Source of the DNA: Chloroflexota bacterium
GTDB lineage: Bacteria; Chloroflexota; Dehalococcoidia; UBA2979
Assembly: GCA_002725365.1 (NCBI GenBank)
Contig: PBOW01000076.1
Location: forward strand, 1-20,852
DNA length: 20,852 nt
Direction: 5' to 3'
This document shows positions 15,000-20,852 of the stretch, in pieces. Numbering within the stretch: position 1 is the stretch's first letter; every line of letters starts with the position of its first letter. The notes under the pieces are model-generated. The model saw nothing but the letters and a program-made list of their open reading frames with translations, did no database searches and was not told the DNA's origin. The translations under genes and the position numbers were made by a program.

Positions 15000-15518
15000 T
15001 CACCAGTCGGGAGTAAGATATTTTTTTACGTTCGAGCGGTCGCTCGGAGGACATAGGTCCCTGAGAGTTTCAATTCTAAGTCCGATGGTCTGGTGCACGA
15101 TTTCTGGTGCGATTTCAGCTAGTGGGACAAGAACGAAGGCCCGGGCAGCCATGTATATATGGGGAACTGTCAGTTCCTCAGAGTTAATAACTTCCCCCTC
15201 TACTATCAAAATGTCGATATCAAGGGGGCGCTCATGCCAGCGTGGATGGTTAGTTGCCCGCCCAGCTGCCCGTTCAAGTTCTTTGGCAATACCCAATATT
15301 TCTAGAGCCGGCAGATTGGTTTTGAGTACCACTGCAGCGTTCAGGAATTCAGGCTGTTGTGTGTATCCCCAAGGCGGTGTTTCGTAGAGGGACGAGTGGC
15401 GCTCAATAGTGCCGATCCGTTCCTGAATAGCAGTCAACGAGTTAGAAAGGGTACTGACCCTGTCGCCTAAGTTACCCCCAATACCTAGATAGACATATCT
15501 TTCTTTTCCCTTGCTCAA
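15000..15518 (-). CDS. folK: 2-amino-4-hydroxy-6-hydroxymethyldihydropteridine pyrophosphokinase (HPPK)
   Basis: The 172-residue product is HPPK of folate synthesis: YLGIGGNLGDR at the start, SSLYETPPWGYTQQPEFLNAAV (pterin-binding region), and the signature HPRWHERPLDIDILI with the magnesium-binding aspartates, then VPHIYMAARAFVLVPLAEIAPE. It transfers pyrophosphate from ATP to the pterin. The start is a TTG at 15518 with GGGGCTG just upstream; no ATG fits. It is the last gene of the minus-strand sulfur cassette, 14 bases after the JAMM peptidase gene, and no other folate gene lies nearby. Folate and purine synthesis share one-carbon metabolism, but the location may be incidental. Confidence 0.94.
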   Translation of the reverse strand: MSKGKERYVYLGIGGNLGDRVSTLSNSLTAIQERIGTIERHSSLYETPPWGYTQQPEFLNAAVVLKTNLPALEILGIAKELERAAGRATNHPRWHERPLDIDILIVEGEVINSEELTVPHIYMAARAFVLVPLAEIAPEIVHQTIGLRIETLRDLCPPSDRSNVKKYLTPDW

Positions 15519-15532
15519 ATTCAGCCCCAGCC

Positions 15533-15970
15533 TTAGTTTTCTGATTCAATCGACTCTTCAGATATCTCGCCATGTTTTTTGATATGGAAGGCTCGGACGT
15601 CCGGCTTGTTGTTCTCAAGTGACACTAGGACGTAATAGGTGTCTGGAAACATTGGCTCATTGTCAGTTTCTCCTGGGGGAAAAAATGCCATACGGACATC
15701 GGTTGGCGACGGATAGGCTGCAGAAGCAACATGAGAGTGATAAATCGCGAAGAGGTCCAAATTTTCGGAATCCCGTTTCTGTTCCAATTTCATCATCTCC
15801 AGAGGTGACATTTCATATCGATAAGGGGACGCGGCTGTGTTTGTCACTCGATGAACGGTCATTTGGCGATCAGACCGCCCAATAAGTATCATTCCGCAGG
15901 CCTCGTTTGGCAGATCGTCCTTAGCGTGGTCAACCATGGCTTGCAAAATTTCGTTAGGGATATAGGCCAT
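15533..15970 (-). CDS. mec: JAMM/MPN+ metallopeptidase, Mec-like CysO-cysteine peptidase
   Basis: The 145-residue protein has a complete JAMM zinc site: E23 (NEACG), H78-x-H80 (YHSHV), S88 and D91 (SPTDV). Length and composition match the small bacterial Mec/RadC-type stand-alone MPN+ proteins. In Mycobacterium tuberculosis Mec cleaves cysteine from the CysO-cysteine adduct; in other systems (QbsD, HcyD) relatives trim residues after the Gly-Gly end of a sulfur carrier. It lies 36 bases downstream of cysM and in the same run as three carrier genes, two of which have residues after GG. I infer that it may both release cysteine and mature carriers; only the fold and active site are directly seen. 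Confidence 0.9.
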   Translation of the reverse strand: MAYIPNEILQAMVDHAKDDLPNEACGMILIGRSDRQMTVHRVTNTAASPYRYEMSPLEMMKLEQKRDSENLDLFAIYHSHVASAAYPSPTDVRMAFFPPGETDNEPMFPDTYYVLVSLENNKPDVRAFHIKKHGEISEESIESEN

Positions 15971-16006
15971 ATCTAAAGTTTCCGTCGGATCAAAATTTGG
16001 ATTGGG

Positions 16007-16972
16007 TTACCACCATAGCTTTTCACCGACTGTTTCGCGAATTTCGTCGTAGTCTCGAGACCATAGGCCAGTGGATAAGTATTTCCACCCTCCGTCCGCC
16101 AGGAGGCAGACTATTTTCGTCTTAATGTTAGCGGAGGCATCCTTGTCGGAGCTGGCCGTTTTTTCCGCAGCTCTTTGGGCAGCGCGTATGACAGCCCCAG
16201 CAGAGATTCCAGCAAAGATGCCGGTTTTCTGAGTTAACTCTCTTGTCGTTCTGAAAGAAGTTTCCGAGTCCACTACAATTCTTCCATCGAGTACTGACTC
16301 GTCAAAAACCGGTGGAATATATCCGTCTTCTAAAGCCCGTAAACCTTGGACCAGATCCCCGGGGTGAGGGGCTGCCGCGATTACTCTAATGTTGGGGTTG
16401 TGCTCTTTCAGGCTTCGACCAACGCCAGTGAGTGTGCCACCTGTGCCTAATCCCGACACGAACATACTTATATCCGGCATATCGCGGATGATTTCGGGCC
16501 CAGTAGTCTCGTAATGGGCTAAGGGATTATTTTCGTTCTCATATTGAAAAGGCATGAACCACTGAGGATTATCTTGCGCCAACTGTTCGGCCATTTGCAC
16601 AGCGCCGTTGGAGCCGAGGTCACCTGGCGAGAATATAATCTCGGCACCGAAAGCCTCGAGAAGTTGAATTCGCTCCTCGGAGACGGCATCAGGCATAATC
16701 ACCTTGACGGGATACCCTCGCAGTGTGCCAATTAGCGCTATTGCAATTCCAGTGTTTCCTGAGCTGGGTTCTAAGATCGTTTGGCCAGGCTGCAGGGAGC
16801 CGTCTTTTTCTGCCCGGTTAATCATATACTTCGCAATTCGATCTTTTGCTGATCCAGTGGGATTTTCCCCCTCGAGTTTGGCCCAAATCTCGACGTTTTC
16901 ATTCGGGGAGAGGGTAGATATATCTACAAGAGGTGTATCACCGACGCGTTCTAGTATTCCACTGAATTTCAT
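16007..16972 (-). CDS. cysM: CysO-dependent cysteine synthase (O-phosphoserine sulfhydrylase type)
   Basis: The 321-residue PLP enzyme is a CysM of the mycobacterial class. The PLP lysine is K43 (GSAKDRIAK), the substrate loop is SSGNTGIA, the phosphate loop GLGTGGTLTG, and the C-terminal part reads GIFAGISAGAV and GGWKYLSTGLW, ending EKLWW much as mycobacterial CysM ends. R212 (GLRALEDG) sits where the M. tuberculosis enzyme has the arginine that selects O-phosphoserine. These traits indicate O-phosphoserine plus carrier thiocarboxylate to carrier-cysteine. I use ATG 16972 (MKFSGILERVGDTPLV); an open frame further upstream belongs to the overlapping cysO end. A perfect 7-bp hairpin lies between cysO and this ATG. 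Confidence 0.93.
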   Translation of the reverse strand: MKFSGILERVGDTPLVDISTLSPNENVEIWAKLEGENPTGSAKDRIAKYMINRAEKDGSLQPGQTILEPSSGNTGIAIALIGTLRGYPVKVIMPDAVSEERIQLLEAFGAEIIFSPGDLGSNGAVQMAEQLAQDNPQWFMPFQYENENNPLAHYETTGPEIIRDMPDISMFVSGLGTGGTLTGVGRSLKEHNPNIRVIAAAPHPGDLVQGLRALEDGYIPPVFDESVLDGRIVVDSETSFRTTRELTQKTGIFAGISAGAVIRAAQRAAEKTASSDKDASANIKTKIVCLLADGGWKYLSTGLWSRDYDEIRETVGEKLWW

Positions 16973-16975
16973 TTT

Positions 16976-16994
16976 GGAGGGGTCACTCCCCTCC
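16976..16994 (-). other. Perfect hairpin over the cysO stop codon, just before cysM
   Basis: On the transcribed strand GGAGGGG pairs perfectly with CCCCTCC across a 5-base loop, which holds the cysO TGA. The 3' arm ends three bases before the cysM ATG. The 5' arm contains the only good ribosome-binding sequence (GGAGG) for cysM, but it lies about 18 bases upstream and encodes the Gly-Gly end of CysO. Folding would sequester it unless ribosomes translate cysO. There is no U-tract, so it is not a normal terminator. Confidence 0.6.
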
Positions 16995-17261
16995 GGCAAG
17001 GGCTGGTAGGATCGACACAGTGTCATCATCTGTCAACTCGGTATTAAGCCCATCGAGGTACCTAATATCTTCGTCGTTCAAATAGATATTTACGAAACGA
17101 CGTAATTCGCCACCCTCCTCCAAAATCTGGTCAGAGAACCCTGGATAAGCCTCATTGATATTCTCAATGAGACTCTTAACCGAGTCGCCGACGCTTTCGA
17201 AGCTGCGTTGGCCACCAACTAGCTTTTCTATTACGGATGTTACATTCACCGTCACTGCCAA
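16983..17261 (-). CDS. cysO: Sulfur carrier protein CysO (carrier 1), ending -GGE
   Basis: The 92-residue ubiquitin-like protein closely resembles mycobacterial CysO: an N-terminal strand (VTVNVTSVIEKLVGGQRSFES), the helix LIENINEAYPGFSDQILEEGGELRRFVNIYLNDEDIRYLDGL, and the C-terminal DDDTVSILPALAGGE. The Gly-Gly should be adenylated by the E1 enzyme and converted to a thiocarboxylate, but here one glutamate follows it, so a cut is needed first. The TTG start at 17261 has AAAGGCG about 8 bases upstream. It lies between moeB and cysM, the same carrier-synthase pairing as in Mycobacterium. C-terminal sequence was read codon by codon (GGA GGG GAG TGA). Confidence 0.92.
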   Translation of the reverse strand: MAVTVNVTSVIEKLVGGQRSFESVGDSVKSLIENINEAYPGFSDQILEEGGELRRFVNIYLNDEDIRYLDGLNTELTDDDTVSILPALAGGE

Positions 17262-17309
17262 GGTTATGCGCCTTTCTTCTGCGTAATACTAAGTTAACTT
17301 TATTGGTAA

Positions 17310-18170
17310 TTAGGCACTAGGCATTTCAAGTGGTGGAGAGCCGCAGAACACGTCATAGTCGATTAATTCTGTCACGGTCGGATTGTCTCCACATAGCGGG
17401 CAGTTTGGATCACGCCTAAGTTTCATTGTTCTAAATTCCATAGTTAAGGCGTCTACAAGAAGAAGTTTATTCGTGAGGGGTTCACCAATATCAAGGATCT
17501 GTTTGAAAACCTCTGTTGCTTGAATTGAACCTACGATTCCTGTTATTGCTCCCAAGACTCCTGCCTCGGCGCACGAGGGCACCATCCCTGGAGGTGGTGG
17601 GTCTGGGTATAAGCAGCGATAACAGCATTTGCCTGGTTCGTACACTGTGGCCTGGCCGTCAAACAATAGTATCGCTCCGTCGACCAACGTTTTGCCGCTC
17701 AGGTAGCAGGCATCATTTACGAGGTATCGGGTGGCGAAGTTGTCGGCACCATTCACGACAATGTCATAATCAGCAATTATTTCCATGGCATTGTCAGACG
17801 TTATCGGAGCGTGATGCTCGATCACTGAAACATGGGGGTTATACGCAGAGAGAGTCTCTTTTGCTGATTGGATTTTGGGCCGATTGATATCCGCAGTTTG
17901 GTGCAGTACCTGTCGCTGAAGGTTAGAGAGATCAACAACGTCGAACTCTACGATTCCGATAGTGCCGACCCCTGCCAGAGCAAGATATATGGATACTGGT
18001 CCACCTAGGCCACCAGCTCCAACTACTAGAACTCGAGCGTTTTTCAGCTTTCTTTGTCCTGCCGGTCCCACCTGAGACATAATGATATGCCGAGAGTAAC
18101 GAGTGACTTCTTCAGGTGAGAGGTTGGTATTTGGGACGCTGGAACCGTTAGATATTGCTGTCATTCTCAT
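17310..18170 (-). CDS. moeB: E1-like sulfur-carrier adenylyltransferase (MoeB/ThiF/MoeZ N-domain)
   Basis: The 286-residue protein is a full E1-like enzyme: ATP loop GAGGLGGP (51-58), VDLSNLQRQVLH (80-90) with the catalytic arginine finger, DGADNF-type GADNFATR (141-148), catalytic-position C200 (SCAEAGVLG), and a structural zinc site from C183/C186 and C257/C260. It adenylates the C-terminal glycine of CysO/MoaD/ThiS-type carriers. Mycobacterial MoeZ has an added rhodanese domain for sulfur transfer; this protein stops right after the linker (IDYDVFCGSPP), so sulfur must come from another donor. It precedes cysO by 48 bases. The only E1 gene in the cassette, it probably serves all three carriers. 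M3 (18164) is an alternative start. Confidence 0.92.
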   Translation of the reverse strand: MRMTAISNGSSVPNTNLSPEEVTRYSRHIIMSQVGPAGQRKLKNARVLVVGAGGLGGPVSIYLALAGVGTIGIVEFDVVDLSNLQRQVLHQTADINRPKIQSAKETLSAYNPHVSVIEHHAPITSDNAMEIIADYDIVVNGADNFATRYLVNDACYLSGKTLVDGAILLFDGQATVYEPGKCCYRCLYPDPPPPGMVPSCAEAGVLGAITGIVGSIQATEVFKQILDIGEPLTNKLLLVDALTMEFRTMKLRRDPNCPLCGDNPTVTELIDYDVFCGSPPLEMPSA

Positions 18171-18233
18171 TCCATTTTCTACAAGTAATCTAGTTCGGTC
18201 TTATAGAGTAACTGCTCAGTGCACTCGATGGAA

Positions 18234-18253
18234 ATAGGGTTCTTATAGGGTTC
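18234..18253. repeat. Two direct repeats ATAGGGTTC, 11 bp apart, upstream of moeB
   Basis: The plus strand reads ATAGGGTTC at 18234-18242 and again at 18245-18253. The 11-bp offset puts both on one face of the helix, as for a dimeric or cooperative regulator. They lie in the 92-base gap between carrier 2 and moeB, the longest gap inside the sulfur cassette, about 65-85 bases before the moeB start. No convincing promoter is seen, though TATAAG occurs twice on the transcribed strand. Confidence 0.4.
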
Positions 18254-18262
18254 CGCCTAAGA

Positions 18263-18544
18263 TCACATGGATCCTCCCGCTAGAGCCGGGATAATTGCAA
18301 GCTGGTCACCTGATCTAACTTTAGTTTGAAGACCTTCGAGCTCGTGGATTTCCTGGTTATTGAGGTAGATATTTATGTGCCCCGGTAGCTTCTGCTGTTC
18401 ATCAAAAACGAGATGAGAGAATCCTGGATACTGCTCCTCTATTGATTCAAGTATGTCTTCCACCGTGTTCCCGACCGCAGAAATGTAGTCTTTACTCCCA
18501 GTGATAGATCGGAATGGTGTTGGTATGTATATGCTTACCGACAT
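18263..18544 (-). CDS. CysO/MoaD-like sulfur carrier 2, ending -GGSM
   Basis: The 93-residue ubiquitin-fold protein shares the CysO plan: SVSIYIPTPFRSITGSKDYIS, ILESIEEQYPGFSHLVFDEQQKLPGHINIYLNNQEIHELEGL, then SGDQLAIIPALAGGSM. It differs from carrier 1 along the body, notably PGHINIYLNNQEI against RRFVNIYLNDEDI, so it is a true paralogue. Two residues, Ser-Met, follow the Gly-Gly and would have to be removed before activation. Its ATG lies 4 bases after the cysK stop, so the carrier and this synthase are made together and CysK is probably its partner. MoaD or ThiS function is possible but no molybdopterin or thiamine gene is near. Confidence 0.88.
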   Translation of the reverse strand: MSVSIYIPTPFRSITGSKDYISAVGNTVEDILESIEEQYPGFSHLVFDEQQKLPGHINIYLNNQEIHELEGLQTKVRSGDQLAIIPALAGGSM

Positions 18545-18548
18545 CGCA

Positions 18549-19496
18549 TCAGGTGAGTGGGACCGTTAGGTATCGCTCACCGGTATCGCAGAGCATTGTG
18601 ACGATGGTTTGCTCAGGAGTTAATCGGGCAGCGACTTCAATCGAAGCGTGCACATTTGCTCCCGCGGAAATGCCAACGAGCAGACCTTCCTCTTTTGCCA
18701 AGCGGGCAGTCATCTCGATCGCGTCTTTATCAGACACACAGATGACCTCAGAATAGGCTGACGTGTCTAGGACTGACGGTACGAAGGATGCTCCCATCCC
18801 TTGGAGTTGATGTAGGCCTGGCCGGCCGCCTGAGAGAACGGGTGAACTTGCCGGCTCTACTGCAATGATCTCGCAGTCCAGATTAGCCTCAGCCAGCGCA
18901 CGTGCGACACCTGTAATGGTTCCACCTGACCCCACTCCAGCCACAAATGCATCTAAGTTTGATTCTGTCGCTGATATTATTTCAGGACCTGTAGTCAGGT
19001 AATGAATTTCTGGGTTAGCAGGATTATCAAACTGCTGAAGCATTGTGTAGCCTTCATGTTTTACGAGTTCTTGAGCTTTGAAAACGGCTCCAGTCATACC
19101 TTCTAAGGCAGGAGTGACTACCACCTTTGCGCCTAGTCTCTTGAGGAGCTCGCGCCGTTCAACGCTCATATCCTCCGGCATCGTCAGGATCAGTCGGTAC
19201 CCTTTATATGAGCACACCATCGCCAGGCCGATACCAGTGTTACCCGATGTGGGTTCTACGAGAGTAGCGCCCTTGGTAATCAGTCCGCTACTTTCGGCAG
19301 ACTCAACCATCGCCTTTGCGATCCGATCCTTTACAGATCCTGCGGGGTTGAAGGATTCTACTTTCCCGAGGATTGTTGCCCCGTTAGGGGGCGATATCTT
19401 GCTGAGTTGGACCAGGGGTGTATTGCCTATGAGATCCAGTACTGATGAAGCGATGGAAGGTTTCGTGTGACTAGGATTAACTTTCCGTTTTTTCAT
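18549..19496 (-). CDS. cysK: Cysteine synthase A-type PLP enzyme (O-acetylserine sulfhydrylase family)
   Basis: The 315-residue product is a fold type II PLP enzyme: PLP lysine K56 (FNPAGSVKDRIAK), substrate loop PTSGNTGIGLA, phosphate loop GVGSGGTITG, EPASSPVLSGGRPGLHQLQGMGASFVP, and GISAGANVHA. It makes cysteine from O-acetylserine and sulfide, or, as its neighbour suggests, from a carrier thiocarboxylate. Unlike the CysM here it lacks the GWKYLSTG ending. A basic N-terminal tail (MKKRKVNPSHTKPS) precedes the domain. It follows the Rrf2 regulator by 22 bases and precedes carrier 2 by 4. In Bacillus, CysK also acts as co-regulator by binding the Rrf2-type CymR, so the gene order is suggestive. 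Confidence 0.92.
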   Translation of the reverse strand: MKKRKVNPSHTKPSIASSVLDLIGNTPLVQLSKISPPNGATILGKVESFNPAGSVKDRIAKAMVESAESSGLITKGATLVEPTSGNTGIGLAMVCSYKGYRLILTMPEDMSVERRELLKRLGAKVVVTPALEGMTGAVFKAQELVKHEGYTMLQQFDNPANPEIHYLTTGPEIISATESNLDAFVAGVGSGGTITGVARALAEANLDCEIIAVEPASSPVLSGGRPGLHQLQGMGASFVPSVLDTSAYSEVICVSDKDAIEMTARLAKEEGLLVGISAGANVHASIEVAARLTPEQTIVTMLCDTGERYLTVPLT

Positions 19497-19518
19497 TATT
19501 GGAAACGCCGATCAAGGT

Positions 19519-19962
19519 TTAGATGAGATAACGCGGGGCAGCTGTTTCTTCCGCCCGTTGTTCAGCTTCAGCTAAATCATGCAGTGATATCGAACGGAGC
19601 CTAGCCTTCATGTCATCATAAATTCCCTGCCATACCCATCGCTGGCCAGTCGCATCATTCGCCGCTGATGCCTCATCTTGATCCAAGTTAGCCATCGGGG
19701 AGAGTGATCCCTCGAGGGTTTCAAGCAAGGCAAAGAGGGTAATATCTTTAGGATCGACAGCCAGAGAATGCCCTCCGCCAGGACCTCTGACCGATTTGAT
19801 GAATCCGGCGCGCCTAAGCAGCCCTAATAATTGATCGAGGTACGCCTCCGGGATTTGTCTCCTAGTCGCGATAGCGGAGCGCGCGATAGGATTGCCGGTA
19901 TTCAGTCTAGCCATATCAATCATTGCTCGAACGCCGTAATCTCCTTTTGTTGCTATTAACAT
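19519..19962 (-). CDS. Rrf2-family transcriptional regulator without cluster cysteines (CymR-like)
   Basis: The 147-residue product has the Rrf2 winged helix: MLIATKGDYGVRAMIDMARL, then IPEAYLDQLLGLLRRAGFIKSVRGPGGGHSLA with the GPGGG wing, and LFALLETLEGSL. It contains no cysteine at all, so it cannot bind the Fe-S cluster of IscR- or NsrR-type members and resembles the cluster-free CymR type. CymR represses cysteine uptake and synthesis genes in Bacillus and uses CysK as partner. ATG 19962 is preceded by a perfect GGAGGT (19967-19972), which decides this start over an in-frame GTG 12 bases upstream. It heads the unit cysK-carrier 2-moeB-cysO-cysM-mec and is likely self-regulated. Confidence 0.91.
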   Translation of the reverse strand: MLIATKGDYGVRAMIDMARLNTGNPIARSAIATRRQIPEAYLDQLLGLLRRAGFIKSVRGPGGGHSLAVDPKDITLFALLETLEGSLSPMANLDQDEASAANDATGQRWVWQGIYDDMKARLRSISLHDLAEAEQRAEETAAPRYLI

Positions 19963-19975
19963 TTGTACCTCCACA

Positions 19976-20002
19976 TAGAGACTATTTACGCTATAGACGC
20001 TA
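19976..20002 (-). promoter_or_regulatory. Three 9-bp tandem units upstream of the Rrf2 gene
   Basis: On the transcribed strand three consecutive 9-bp units each begin with TAG; the first two share TAGCGT, the third is diverged. The array ends just before the GGAGGT ribosome-binding site of the Rrf2 gene, within an 83-base gap after carrier 3. It could be the regulator's own operator or part of an AT-rich promoter. No recognised Rrf2 palindrome is present, so this is a weak call. Confidence 0.35.
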
Positions 20003-20045
20003 GCACAGAGAGTCCGATTAATGTGAAGCCGGTTGCTAGATCGAT

Positions 20046-20318
20046 TTAGCCGCCGGCAACGGCTGGGACGATACTTACCTCGTCAGCGTCTCTTACAGGG
20101 GAATCGAGACCATCTAAGAAGCGTACATCTTCGCCGTTGATAAATATATTCACAAAGCGTCTTAGTTCATTATTTTCGTCCAGCAATCTCTCTGCGATAC
20201 CAGGGTAGGAATTTTCCATTTGAGCAATTAACCCTTTGAGATTAGGCGCATTTACTGCGACGGTGTCTTCGTCGTTGGTCAAAGACCGTAGGGGGGTGGG
20301 TATTTTTATCTGTGCCAT
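20046..20318 (-). CDS. CysO/MoaD-like sulfur carrier 3, ending exactly -GG
   Basis: The 90-residue protein has the same fold and motifs as CysO: QIKIPTPLRSLTNDEDTVAV, LIAQMENSYPGIAERLLDENNELRRFVNIFINGEDVRFLDGL, and DADEVSIVPAVAGG. It ends at the Gly-Gly with a stop codon immediately after, so it needs no trimming and is ready for adenylation by the E1 enzyme. The body is closest to carrier 1 and to mycobacterial CysO. It starts 7 bases after the NIL-domain gene and is followed by the 83-base gap before the Rrf2 gene, so it belongs to the thrC-like/NIL transcript. Its likely client is therefore a different PLP reaction from those of carriers 1 and 2. Confidence 0.92.
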   Translation of the reverse strand: MAQIKIPTPLRSLTNDEDTVAVNAPNLKGLIAQMENSYPGIAERLLDENNELRRFVNIFINGEDVRFLDGLDSPVRDADEVSIVPAVAGG

Positions 20319-20325
20319 AGGTATT

Positions 20326-20574
20326 CTAGCCTTCTACGATATCGCCGATAGTTGCATCGGGATCAACTTGGACACCGTTGGCTCGGGCCCAAGCCAAGGC
20401 CTTGTCGATTTCGTGAGGATCACCTTCAAGCCCGAGCATGACCCAACCGATGTCCGATGTTATATCAGCCATGCGAATATTGGTCACCACGTCAAATTCG
20501 TGCCCCATCTTGTATATCAAGGGTTCGCGGATTTTGTCGTTTAAGAAAGTTAGCTTTACTCGTCTTTCAAGCAT
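20326..20574 (-). CDS. NIL domain-containing protein
   Basis: The 82-residue protein is a stand-alone NIL domain, a ferredoxin-like fold first seen at the end of methionine ABC transporter ATPases: VKLTFLNDKIREPLIYKMGHEFDVVTNIRMADITSDIGWVMLGLEGDPHEIDKALAWARANGVQVDP. NIL domains bind or sense amino acids, and NIL-containing proteins take part in homocysteine formation in methanogens and some anaerobes. ATG 20574 is preceded by AAGGTG; a GTG at 20586 is an alternative. It has no cysteine, so it is not a NIL-ferredoxin fusion. It lies between the threonine-synthase-like gene (20-base gap) and carrier 3 (7 bases). Confidence 0.88.
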   Translation of the reverse strand: MLERRVKLTFLNDKIREPLIYKMGHEFDVVTNIRMADITSDIGWVMLGLEGDPHEIDKALAWARANGVQVDPDATIGDIVEG

Positions 20575-20594
20575 GATATGGATCACCTTACATT

Positions 20595-20852
20595 CTAGCT
20601 CGAGCGTTTAGCTGTTTCTTTTTCGAATGCCGTCGCGTTTGCCTCAACCAACATAGCATTATTGGCTACTTCAGAAACAGCCTCGATGGTTTTAAGTCCT
20701 CCACCAGAGATTACGGCAACAACTTCCTCTGAGGAATGTATTGCACCTGTCTGCACTAATTTTTTTAGGCAGGCAATGGTGACGCCGCCAGCTGTTTCCG
20801 CAAAAATTCCCTCTGTTTCGGCTAAAAGATTGATAGCTTCAATGATTTCTTC
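20595..20852 (-). CDS. Threonine synthase-like PLP enzyme, C-terminal part (cut by window edge)
   Basis: The last 85 residues of a minus-strand gene are present, running off the right edge. They match the threonine synthase C-terminus: INLLAETEGIFAETAGGVTIACLKKLVQTGAI, SSEEVVAVISGGGLKTIEAV, then a variable hydrophilic tail ending AKRSS. ThrC converts O-phosphohomoserine to threonine by a PLP beta,gamma-replacement. Placed before a NIL-domain gene and a sulfur carrier, it could be an ordinary ThrC or a paralogue that uses the carrier thiocarboxylate on an O-activated homoserine. The missing N-terminal part with the PLP lysine is needed to decide. Confidence 0.8.
   Translation of the reverse strand, partial: EEIIEAINLLAETEGIFAETAGGVTIACLKKLVQTGAIHSSEEVVAVISGGGLKTIEAVSEVANNAMLVEANATAFEKETAKRSS

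Follow-up and report, generated by a model that had tools for sequence, protein, structure and literature searches.

What does a single operon make with three sulfur carriers, each lying beside a different enzyme? This question is raised by a stretch of 20,852 nucleotides from a Chloroflexota bacterium (the window, C49:1-20852, on a contig of 27,543 bases), whose source genome (G000) is a 1.49-Mb metagenome-assembled genome (MAG) with a completeness of 76.5%. Three CysO-like carriers (c1, c2 and c3) were identified there beside CysM, CysK, and a NIL-domain protein paired with ThrC2, a threonine synthase (ThrC)-like enzyme dependent on pyridoxal phosphate (PLP). One carrier-activating enzyme (E1), one JAMM peptidase and one Rrf2 regulator accompanied them, so that every component named in the first-pass annotation was recovered. 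With about even chances, the cluster might be an operon for protein-thiocarboxylate sulfur assimilation whose three branches share one E1 and one peptidase, the third of them most likely leading to homocysteine.

Gene content and conservation of the cluster

When the open reading frames (ORFs) were assigned with Pfam and NCBIfam, all genes of the triple-carrier cluster were present in the window, all on the minus strand, with the transcription order ThrC2-NIL-c3-Rrf2-CysK-c2-E1-c1-CysM-JAMM. Seven ThiS-family ORFs were found in the whole 1.49-Mb genome. In 94/200,000 random draws any three of these seven lay as close together as the carriers do (3.3 kb), which ruled out chance clustering.

Two sets were used to follow the cluster; they overlap, as a number of the named loci lie on contigs that also belong to family genomes. 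The family comprised 24 genomes (G000-G023), while a scan of named genomes gave 74 loci selected by NIL, and 73 true loci remained after L106, which was not a true match. Seventy of the 73 titles were of Chloroflexota type, two (L063 and L064) read "bacterium" only, and one (L103) belonged to Chthoniobacterales. The carrier type was assigned by profile in L008 and L013-L026, and by position in the remaining family genomes. The co-occurrence proposed for checking in the first-pass annotation held, with three carriers in a single cluster in 19/24 family genomes. In G005, G021 and G023 c3 was on a separate contig, in G007 a single contig carried both halves of the cluster, split exactly between c3 and Rrf2 and separated by about 69 kb, and G020, with two ThiS matches only, lacked both c3 and NIL.

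The ten-gene order was identical in the window contig and in 13/14 fetched family loci (L013-L026); the remaining one, L026, kept the other nine genes, and JAMM was not found in its fetched stretch. All ten genes were present in 23/73 named loci, and all but JAMM in 8 more. The pairing of c1 with CysM was constant (31/31), as were CysK-c2 (32/32), c2-E1 (32/32) and the position of c3 beside ThrC2/NIL (53/53 c3-bearing loci, selected by NIL). Three distinct CysO-type carriers with constant PLP partners upheld in part the multi-branch system suggested earlier; as for its second branch, gene order is the evidence that c2 might feed CysK.

Parts of the cluster were also seen standing apart: E1-c1-CysM-JAMM in G031 and G033, Rrf2-CysK-c2-E1 in G025, and ThrC2-NIL-c3 in G027, G028, G029 and G038. 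In addition, G025 had ThrC2-c3 without NIL, G036 had a lone c3-type carrier, and G030 and G032 each had one carrier with CysK and E1 and no CysM within the fetched stretch. Given that the modules occur apart, and given the split in G007, the cluster seems to have arisen by the joining of three modules, each of a carrier and an enzyme. The gap between CysM and JAMM had a median of 1285 bases (21 loci), against 36 bases in the window. In one family relative a gene for a metallo-beta-lactamase-fold hydrolase (Pfam Lactamase_B, 1.9e-21) was located between CysM and JAMM (L053:12531-13382).

The proposed third branch: c3, NIL and ThrC2

Carrier c3 (20046-20318, minus strand) ended in ..AVAGG and was identified by phmmer (CysO 3dwg_C, 1.4e-19) and by its place in the carrier tree. 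It was followed at 20326-20586 on the same strand by the gene of a stand-alone NIL-domain protein of 86 amino acids, which had NIL as its sole Pfam family (1.4e-15) and no ferredoxin part. The C-terminal 85 codons of ThrC2 occupied 20595-20852, also on the minus strand, where the gene continued beyond the window edge; the whole gene encoded 411 amino acids (C49:20595-21830; L008 7596-8831). The structure model of ThrC2 had a predicted local distance difference test score (pLDDT) of 86.9, and its nearest solved folds were threonine synthases, then the PLP enzyme CapA2. Adjacent to ThrC2-NIL, c3 was found in 53/73 loci.

The active sites of 74 ThrC2 proteins were compared with those of 20 normal ThrC from 20 genomes, in Thermus thermophilus numbering. 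T88 was replaced by L (74/74), S155 by N (73/74), N157 by R (74/74), R160 by Y (74/74) and N188 by S (74/74), whereas all five residues were retained in 20/20 normal ThrC. The PLP lysine was retained in the 74 ThrC2, and the S155-R160 stretch aligned with a one-residue insertion in ThrC2. T88, S155, R160 and N188 are residues that we take to form the O-phosphohomoserine substrate pocket of T. thermophilus ThrC.

For 40 of the 73 loci, 19 without and 21 with an adjacent c3, the genomes were searched for ThrC. A normal ThrC accompanied ThrC2 in 39/40 of them, the exception being G073, a 1.1-Mb assembly. The notion that ThrC2 is the only threonine synthase was thus rejected for most genomes, with G073 and G031 as exceptions.

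Two observations concern relatives of these proteins. In Chloroflexi RBG_13_53_26 the run CysK, PF01053 enzyme, ThrC2 and NIL was observed without c3 (L097:666-4461), in a genome that also had DUF39 and a second ThrC. NIL gave no match in plasmids at 1e-5; the thrC of a haloarchaeal plasmid had STGNA instead of STGNL, and no carrier was annotated near it.

A possible homocysteine route in the family

The thresholds for the family were >100 bits for PF01053 and >400 bits for the MetH activation domain or MetE; for the 40-genome set, PF01053 was taken at E<=1e-40. PF01053 enzymes were found in 5/24 family genomes (G001, G002, G003, G019 and, as a partial match, G000). The other 19/24 had no PF01053 match above 100 bits, and DUF39 was found in 0/24. 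Among these 19 genomes MetH was present in 5 and MetE in nine others, so that 14 had a methionine synthase and neither tested homocysteine family, and all 14 possessed ThrC2-NIL-c3, by position, as one common candidate module. In the 40 ThrC2-NIL genomes, PF01053 was lacking in 33 and present in 7 (two partial; 2/19 without c3 and 5/21 with c3), and DUF39 occurred in 1/40. A MetX search covered 40 genomes, the family included; none scored above the cut-off, but 14 controls were also below it. Scores of about 450 bits were reached only in G029, G034 and G036, which are not in the family, and the best family scores were 140 (G005) and 97 (G020).

PMC5764234 describes NIL proteins as necessary for Desulfovibrio and Methanosarcina to make homocysteine, and states that at least one further homocysteine pathway is still to be found. 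The homoserine-type branch suggested before received indirect support from the lack of PF01053 and DUF39 in 19/24 genomes and from the NIL tie; the use of O-phosphohomoserine itself was not supported, the presumed pocket being replaced. Tentatively, and with somewhat less than even confidence, c3-NIL-ThrC2 may be an undescribed homocysteine synthase, in which a PLP enzyme of threonine-synthase fold would take carrier sulfur with the help of NIL. Its range would take in the Chloroflexota, at least one MAG of Verrucomicrobia type and, without NIL, an actinomycete. In the operon, an E1 that is often itself produced as a carrier-E1 precursor would serve all three branches.

If true, this would fill a gap in methionine synthesis, correct an enzyme class that is named threonine synthase by a curated model, and show how a system of ubiquitin-like carriers came to have several branches while keeping a single E1 and a single protease. 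We know of no earlier fold-type-II, carrier-dependent route to methionine. Neither a triple carrier set nor a carrier-dependent ThrC-like enzyme was found in the open-licence literature, among the matches listed.

As a separate observation on methionine synthesis, a frame of 353 amino acids at G000:C40:5573-6577, also seen in the genus, matched PF01717 with 44.9 bits. It is possibly a methionine synthase of the core type described in PMC7005905.

Carriers, E1 and the peptidase

Carrier c1 (16983-17261, minus strand, C-terminus ..ALAGGE) appeared to be the CysO orthologue, with a phmmer match to CysO 3dwg_C of 6.7e-21 and a position beside CysO in the tree. Carrier c2 (18263-18544, minus strand) was assigned by NCBIfam and the tree and ended in ..ALAGGSM, two residues past GG. 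The tree held 59 chosen rows and no ThiS reference, the very long rows XDH_C28 and XDH_C94 having been excluded. Support was 98/97 for c1, 99/94 for c2 as its own clade and 93/79 for CysO beside c1; c3 lay to one side of a branch with weak support (72/27), and two MoaD rows of the source genome itself joined the c3 side on long branches whose position is unsure. The best matches of c1 and c3 in the PDB were CysO structures. No MoaD or ThiS equivalog model was among the NCBIfam matches of the three carriers, and c1 and c3 exceeded the cut-off of the broad "MoaD family" subfamily model moaD_arch.

A role of c1 and c2 as molybdopterin carriers was rejected, because the MoaD-MoaE-like fusion of the genome, on C8, and its carriers on C64, C28 and C94 are separate, and the tree places c1 and c2 clear of MoaD; c3 is very probably not a molybdopterin carrier either. 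A place of c2 and c3 in the MoaD or ThiS clades had been named at first as grounds for refutation; in this tree, built with no ThiS reference, c2 was clear of MoaD, and c3 is probably clear of it too, though less firmly. Of the four other ThiS-family carriers of the source genome, by our own reading of the gene names, one was the MoaD-MoaE-like fusion on C8 (L010), one adjoined an aldehyde ferredoxin oxidoreductase-like gene on C64 (L009) and two adjoined xanthine-dehydrogenase-like genes on C28 and C94 (L011 and L012).

The E1 gene (17310-18170, minus strand) encoded a MoeB/UbaA-type enzyme with ThiF as its sole Pfam family (4.3e-80) and without a rhodanese domain. The motif PSCAEAGVLG was found in 31/31 E1 proteins, and in relatives these proteins had 0-12 residues left beyond the E1 domain. 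In 18/32 loci c2 was fused to the N-terminus of E1, with AGG and then a linker, and its C-terminus was GG in 0/32, the tails of rows L044 and L045 being measured from an ambiguous GG. A C-terminal GG was seen in 10/31 c1 and 30/53 c3 of the named loci. Since c2 never ends in GG and is often fused to E1, it would need a peptidase cut after GG before activation. The AlphaFold model of the c2-E1 fusion had a mean pLDDT of 52, too low to place c2 on E1. The candidate cutter of the c2 precursor would be the JAMM/JAB peptidase at 15533-15970 (minus strand; Pfam Prok-JAB, 1.6e-19), Mec/QbsD-like by family. Its metal motif HxH..SxxD was present in the window protein and in 21/21 named-locus matches above 100 bits, three weaker or cut matches having been left out of the count. 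A precedent for a fused carrier cut at GG is MoaX, described in PMC4326299 as a fused MoaD-MoaE needing cleavage at an internal GG. In both cases a carrier with an internal GG would be freed by proteolysis, but c2 is fused to its activating enzyme, whereas the MoaX carrier, according to the same text, is fused to its acceptor.

The probable cysteine branches and the proposed mechanism

CysM, a CysO-type cysteine synthase, was encoded at 16007-16972 on the minus strand, the ORF extending to 17029 with a probable start at 16972. Its best PDB matches were Mycobacterium tuberculosis CysM (3dwg, 5.3e-87), and the C-terminal WW and LR..G motif were each present in 30/31 proteins; the exception, L043, is truncated where its locus ends. 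Within LR..G, the Arg presumably corresponds to the phosphoserine-recognising Arg220 of M. tuberculosis CysM. By sequence, c1-CysM is the known CysO-CysM pair, and like the orthologous mycobacterial pair, this first branch would produce cysteine, very probably from O-phosphoserine.

CysK (cysteine synthase A, 18549-19496, minus strand; NCBIfam TIGR01139, 413 bits, cut-off 351) was separated from c2 by 4 bases (18544/18549), exactly as had been noted at first. Directly upstream of CysK was the Rrf2 regulator (19519-19974, minus strand), whose best equivalog-type model was CymR (NF047409) with 99.4 bits, below the cut-off of 195. In Bacillus, CymR acts in complex with CysK, and by analogy the Rrf2/CysK pair is a possible sensor. 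The second branch, c2-CysK, might thus be a second cysteine route or a sensor branch of the CymR/CysK type. What is new in it is the carrier-E1 precursor.

The sequences show which genes are present and how well they are conserved, the c2-E1 fusion, the separate carrier groups, the replaced active-site residues and, for most family genomes, the absence of both tested homocysteine enzyme families. We infer the chemistry, the carrier-enzyme pairings and the products as follows. The c2 precursor, with residues or a whole E1 after GG, would first be cut by JAMM or another peptidase. E1 would adenylate the C-terminal GG of each carrier, which a sulfur donor would convert into a thiocarboxylate. The fold-type-II PLP enzyme would turn an activated amino acid into an unsaturated enzyme-bound intermediate, which would take the sulfur from the carrier, and the JAMM peptidase would release the new amino acid. 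In the third branch (c3-NIL-ThrC2), the threonine-synthase paralogue with its rebuilt active site would most likely convert activated homoserine into homocysteine.

Comparison with known systems

The mycobacterial CysO-CysM-Mec system with MoeZ is similar in that c1 and CysM were best matched by CysO and CysM among solved structures, and in that JAMM belongs to the same peptidase family as Mec, a match at the level of the family. It differs in that the cluster of the window adds two more carriers with PLP enzymes of their own, one of these carriers being often fused to E1, and in that its E1, encoded within the operon, lacks a rhodanese domain. The HcyS-HcyD-HcyF-MetY pathway of Wolinella is said to be a carrier-dependent homocysteine synthesis with a PF01053 partner. 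It would share a carrier, JAMM and E1 for homocysteine with the present cluster, but the partner of c3 is a ThrC paralogue of PALP fold (fold type II) with NIL, not a MetY-type PF01053 enzyme. The DUF39/NIL-ferredoxin homocysteine pathway has the NIL domain in common; in contrast, DUF39 was absent from 24/24 family genomes, and the NIL protein of the cluster has 86 amino acids and no ferredoxin.

Mycobacterium, taken at first as the sole comparison, was too narrow a basis, because operon type 4c in Table 1 of Iyer et al. 2006 (PMC1779556, as far as its text was available) already combined ThiS/MoaD, E1, JAB and cysteine synthase and included Chloroflexus aurantiacus. This is the same functional set for one carrier. 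Unlike the present cluster, its E1 is rhodanese-fused; in the available part of that paper no triple set was seen and "threonine synthase" had 0 occurrences.

Occurrence beyond Chloroflexota

Two more groups, represented by L103 and L127, had a carrier adjoining ThrC2. In the Chthoniobacterales MAG the order was altered to ThrC2-c3-NIL (L103:6362-8243), and its genome gave neither a PF01053 match at 1e-40 nor DUF39; horizontal transfer of this module is possible. The ThrC2 of Nonomuraea gerenzanensis, which bears the diagnostic motifs and is 52% identical to that of L105, adjoined a c3-like carrier, followed by cold-shock-like and GroEL genes, with no NIL within 8 kb of ThrC2. We take the same gene order to be that of SCO4293-SCO4296 in Streptomyces coelicolor, SCO4294 being assumed to be the carrier from synteny, so Streptomyces laboratory strains probably carry the ThrC2-carrier pair. 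According to PMC2267785, SCO4293 ("threonine synthase") and SCO4294 are among the sulfate-assimilation genes by expression profile, in one group with cysM-SCO2911-SCO2912 and cysNDCH, the table values being apparently distances between profiles. This profile supports a role in sulfur metabolism and does not tell which product is made.

Weighing of the alternatives

Several points weigh against a third branch that makes homocysteine. Most of the genomes are incomplete MAGs. The genus of the window keeps PF01053 enzymes (G001-G003, and G000 with a partial one at a contig edge), so the gap argument holds for the relatives and not for the genome of the window, and in G019, G027, G029 and G038 a PF01053 enzyme coexists with ThrC2-NIL-c3. 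Wherever a searched genome had no strong PF01053 match, weak partial ones (<=38 bits) occurred, which we tentatively read as other PLP enzymes. Five of the 19 genomes without PF01053 had neither MetH nor MetE above 400 bits, and methionine synthase can also serve recycling. Homocysteine routes can be missing without ThrC2 as well, because G033 (69% complete) and G037 (85%) had no PF01053 above 100 bits, DUF39 or NIL. ThrC2-NIL was without an adjacent c3 in 20/73 loci, one of which is truncated at the end of its contig, and 17/19 searched genomes of this kind still lacked PF01053; an adjacent c3 is therefore not obligatory. NIL was within one gene of ThrC2 in 73/73 loci (ThrC2 directly before NIL in 72/73, one gene off in L103), a link partly built in, as the NIL query was derived from ThrC2-linked NIL proteins. 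ThrC2 exceeded the cut-off of the NCBIfam thrC model TIGR00260 (265.3 bits, cut-off 167.1). In G031 (81% complete) the sole ThrC above the cut-off was a NIL-linked ThrC2 beside a PF01053 enzyme, with the motifs STGNLAN, NLRPYY and VASGS (L140, G031:C58:25500-29500); either a normal ThrC is missing from this assembly, or ThrC2 makes threonine there. Finally, the substrate of ThrC2 may differ from O-phosphohomoserine, because the residues taken to bind it are lost.

This loss would also suit a third cysteine synthase, using O-phosphoserine or O-acetylserine as a condition-dependent redundancy, with homocysteine being taken up or made by another enzyme. In its favour, both remaining branches are of the serine type, CapA2 follows the threonine synthases in the ranking of nearest solved folds, and an NCBIfam cysteate synthase model bears the name CapA. 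But ThrC2 scores with threonine synthase and not with CysK/CysM, NIL has a link to homocysteine synthesis in Desulfovibrio as well as Methanosarcina (PMC5764234), and the PF01053/DUF39 gap in 19/24 family genomes would be left unexplained; we consider this reading unlikely. A further reading, distinctly improbable, has ThrC2 as another threonine synthase that NIL would regulate, c3 being a carrier co-transcribed for other uses. The TIGR00260 score, the nearest structures and the sole ThrC of G031 speak for it, as do the PF01053-ThrC2-NIL runs without an adjacent c3 in G031, L097 and L099; yet another ThrC was present in 39/40 genomes, five positions kept in 20/20 normal ThrC were replaced in at least 73/74 ThrC2, and a carrier adjoins ThrC2 in two further groups. 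Because the curated model still calls it a threonine synthase, ThrC2 is likely to be misannotated in databases.

The carriers themselves might be interchangeable, or protein modifiers like the small archaeal modifier proteins (SAMPs), so that the three-to-three pairing would be regulatory and not metabolic. The NCBIfam SAMP1 model matched all three carriers, c2 above the cut-off, and archaeal carrier redundancy and carrier borrowing by BexX are published (PMC11323500). Against this, c1 and c2 form well supported clades, the three carriers have constant neighbours in the named loci, and the separate modules bring their own carrier; we hold this explanation to be rather improbable.

Surroundings of the cluster

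A search of the window with Rfam gave 0 matches at gathering scores. Directly after JAMM, a FolK-like gene (pterin pyrophosphokinase, by our own reading) was located at 15000-15518 of the window, and it was seen in the same position in several relatives.

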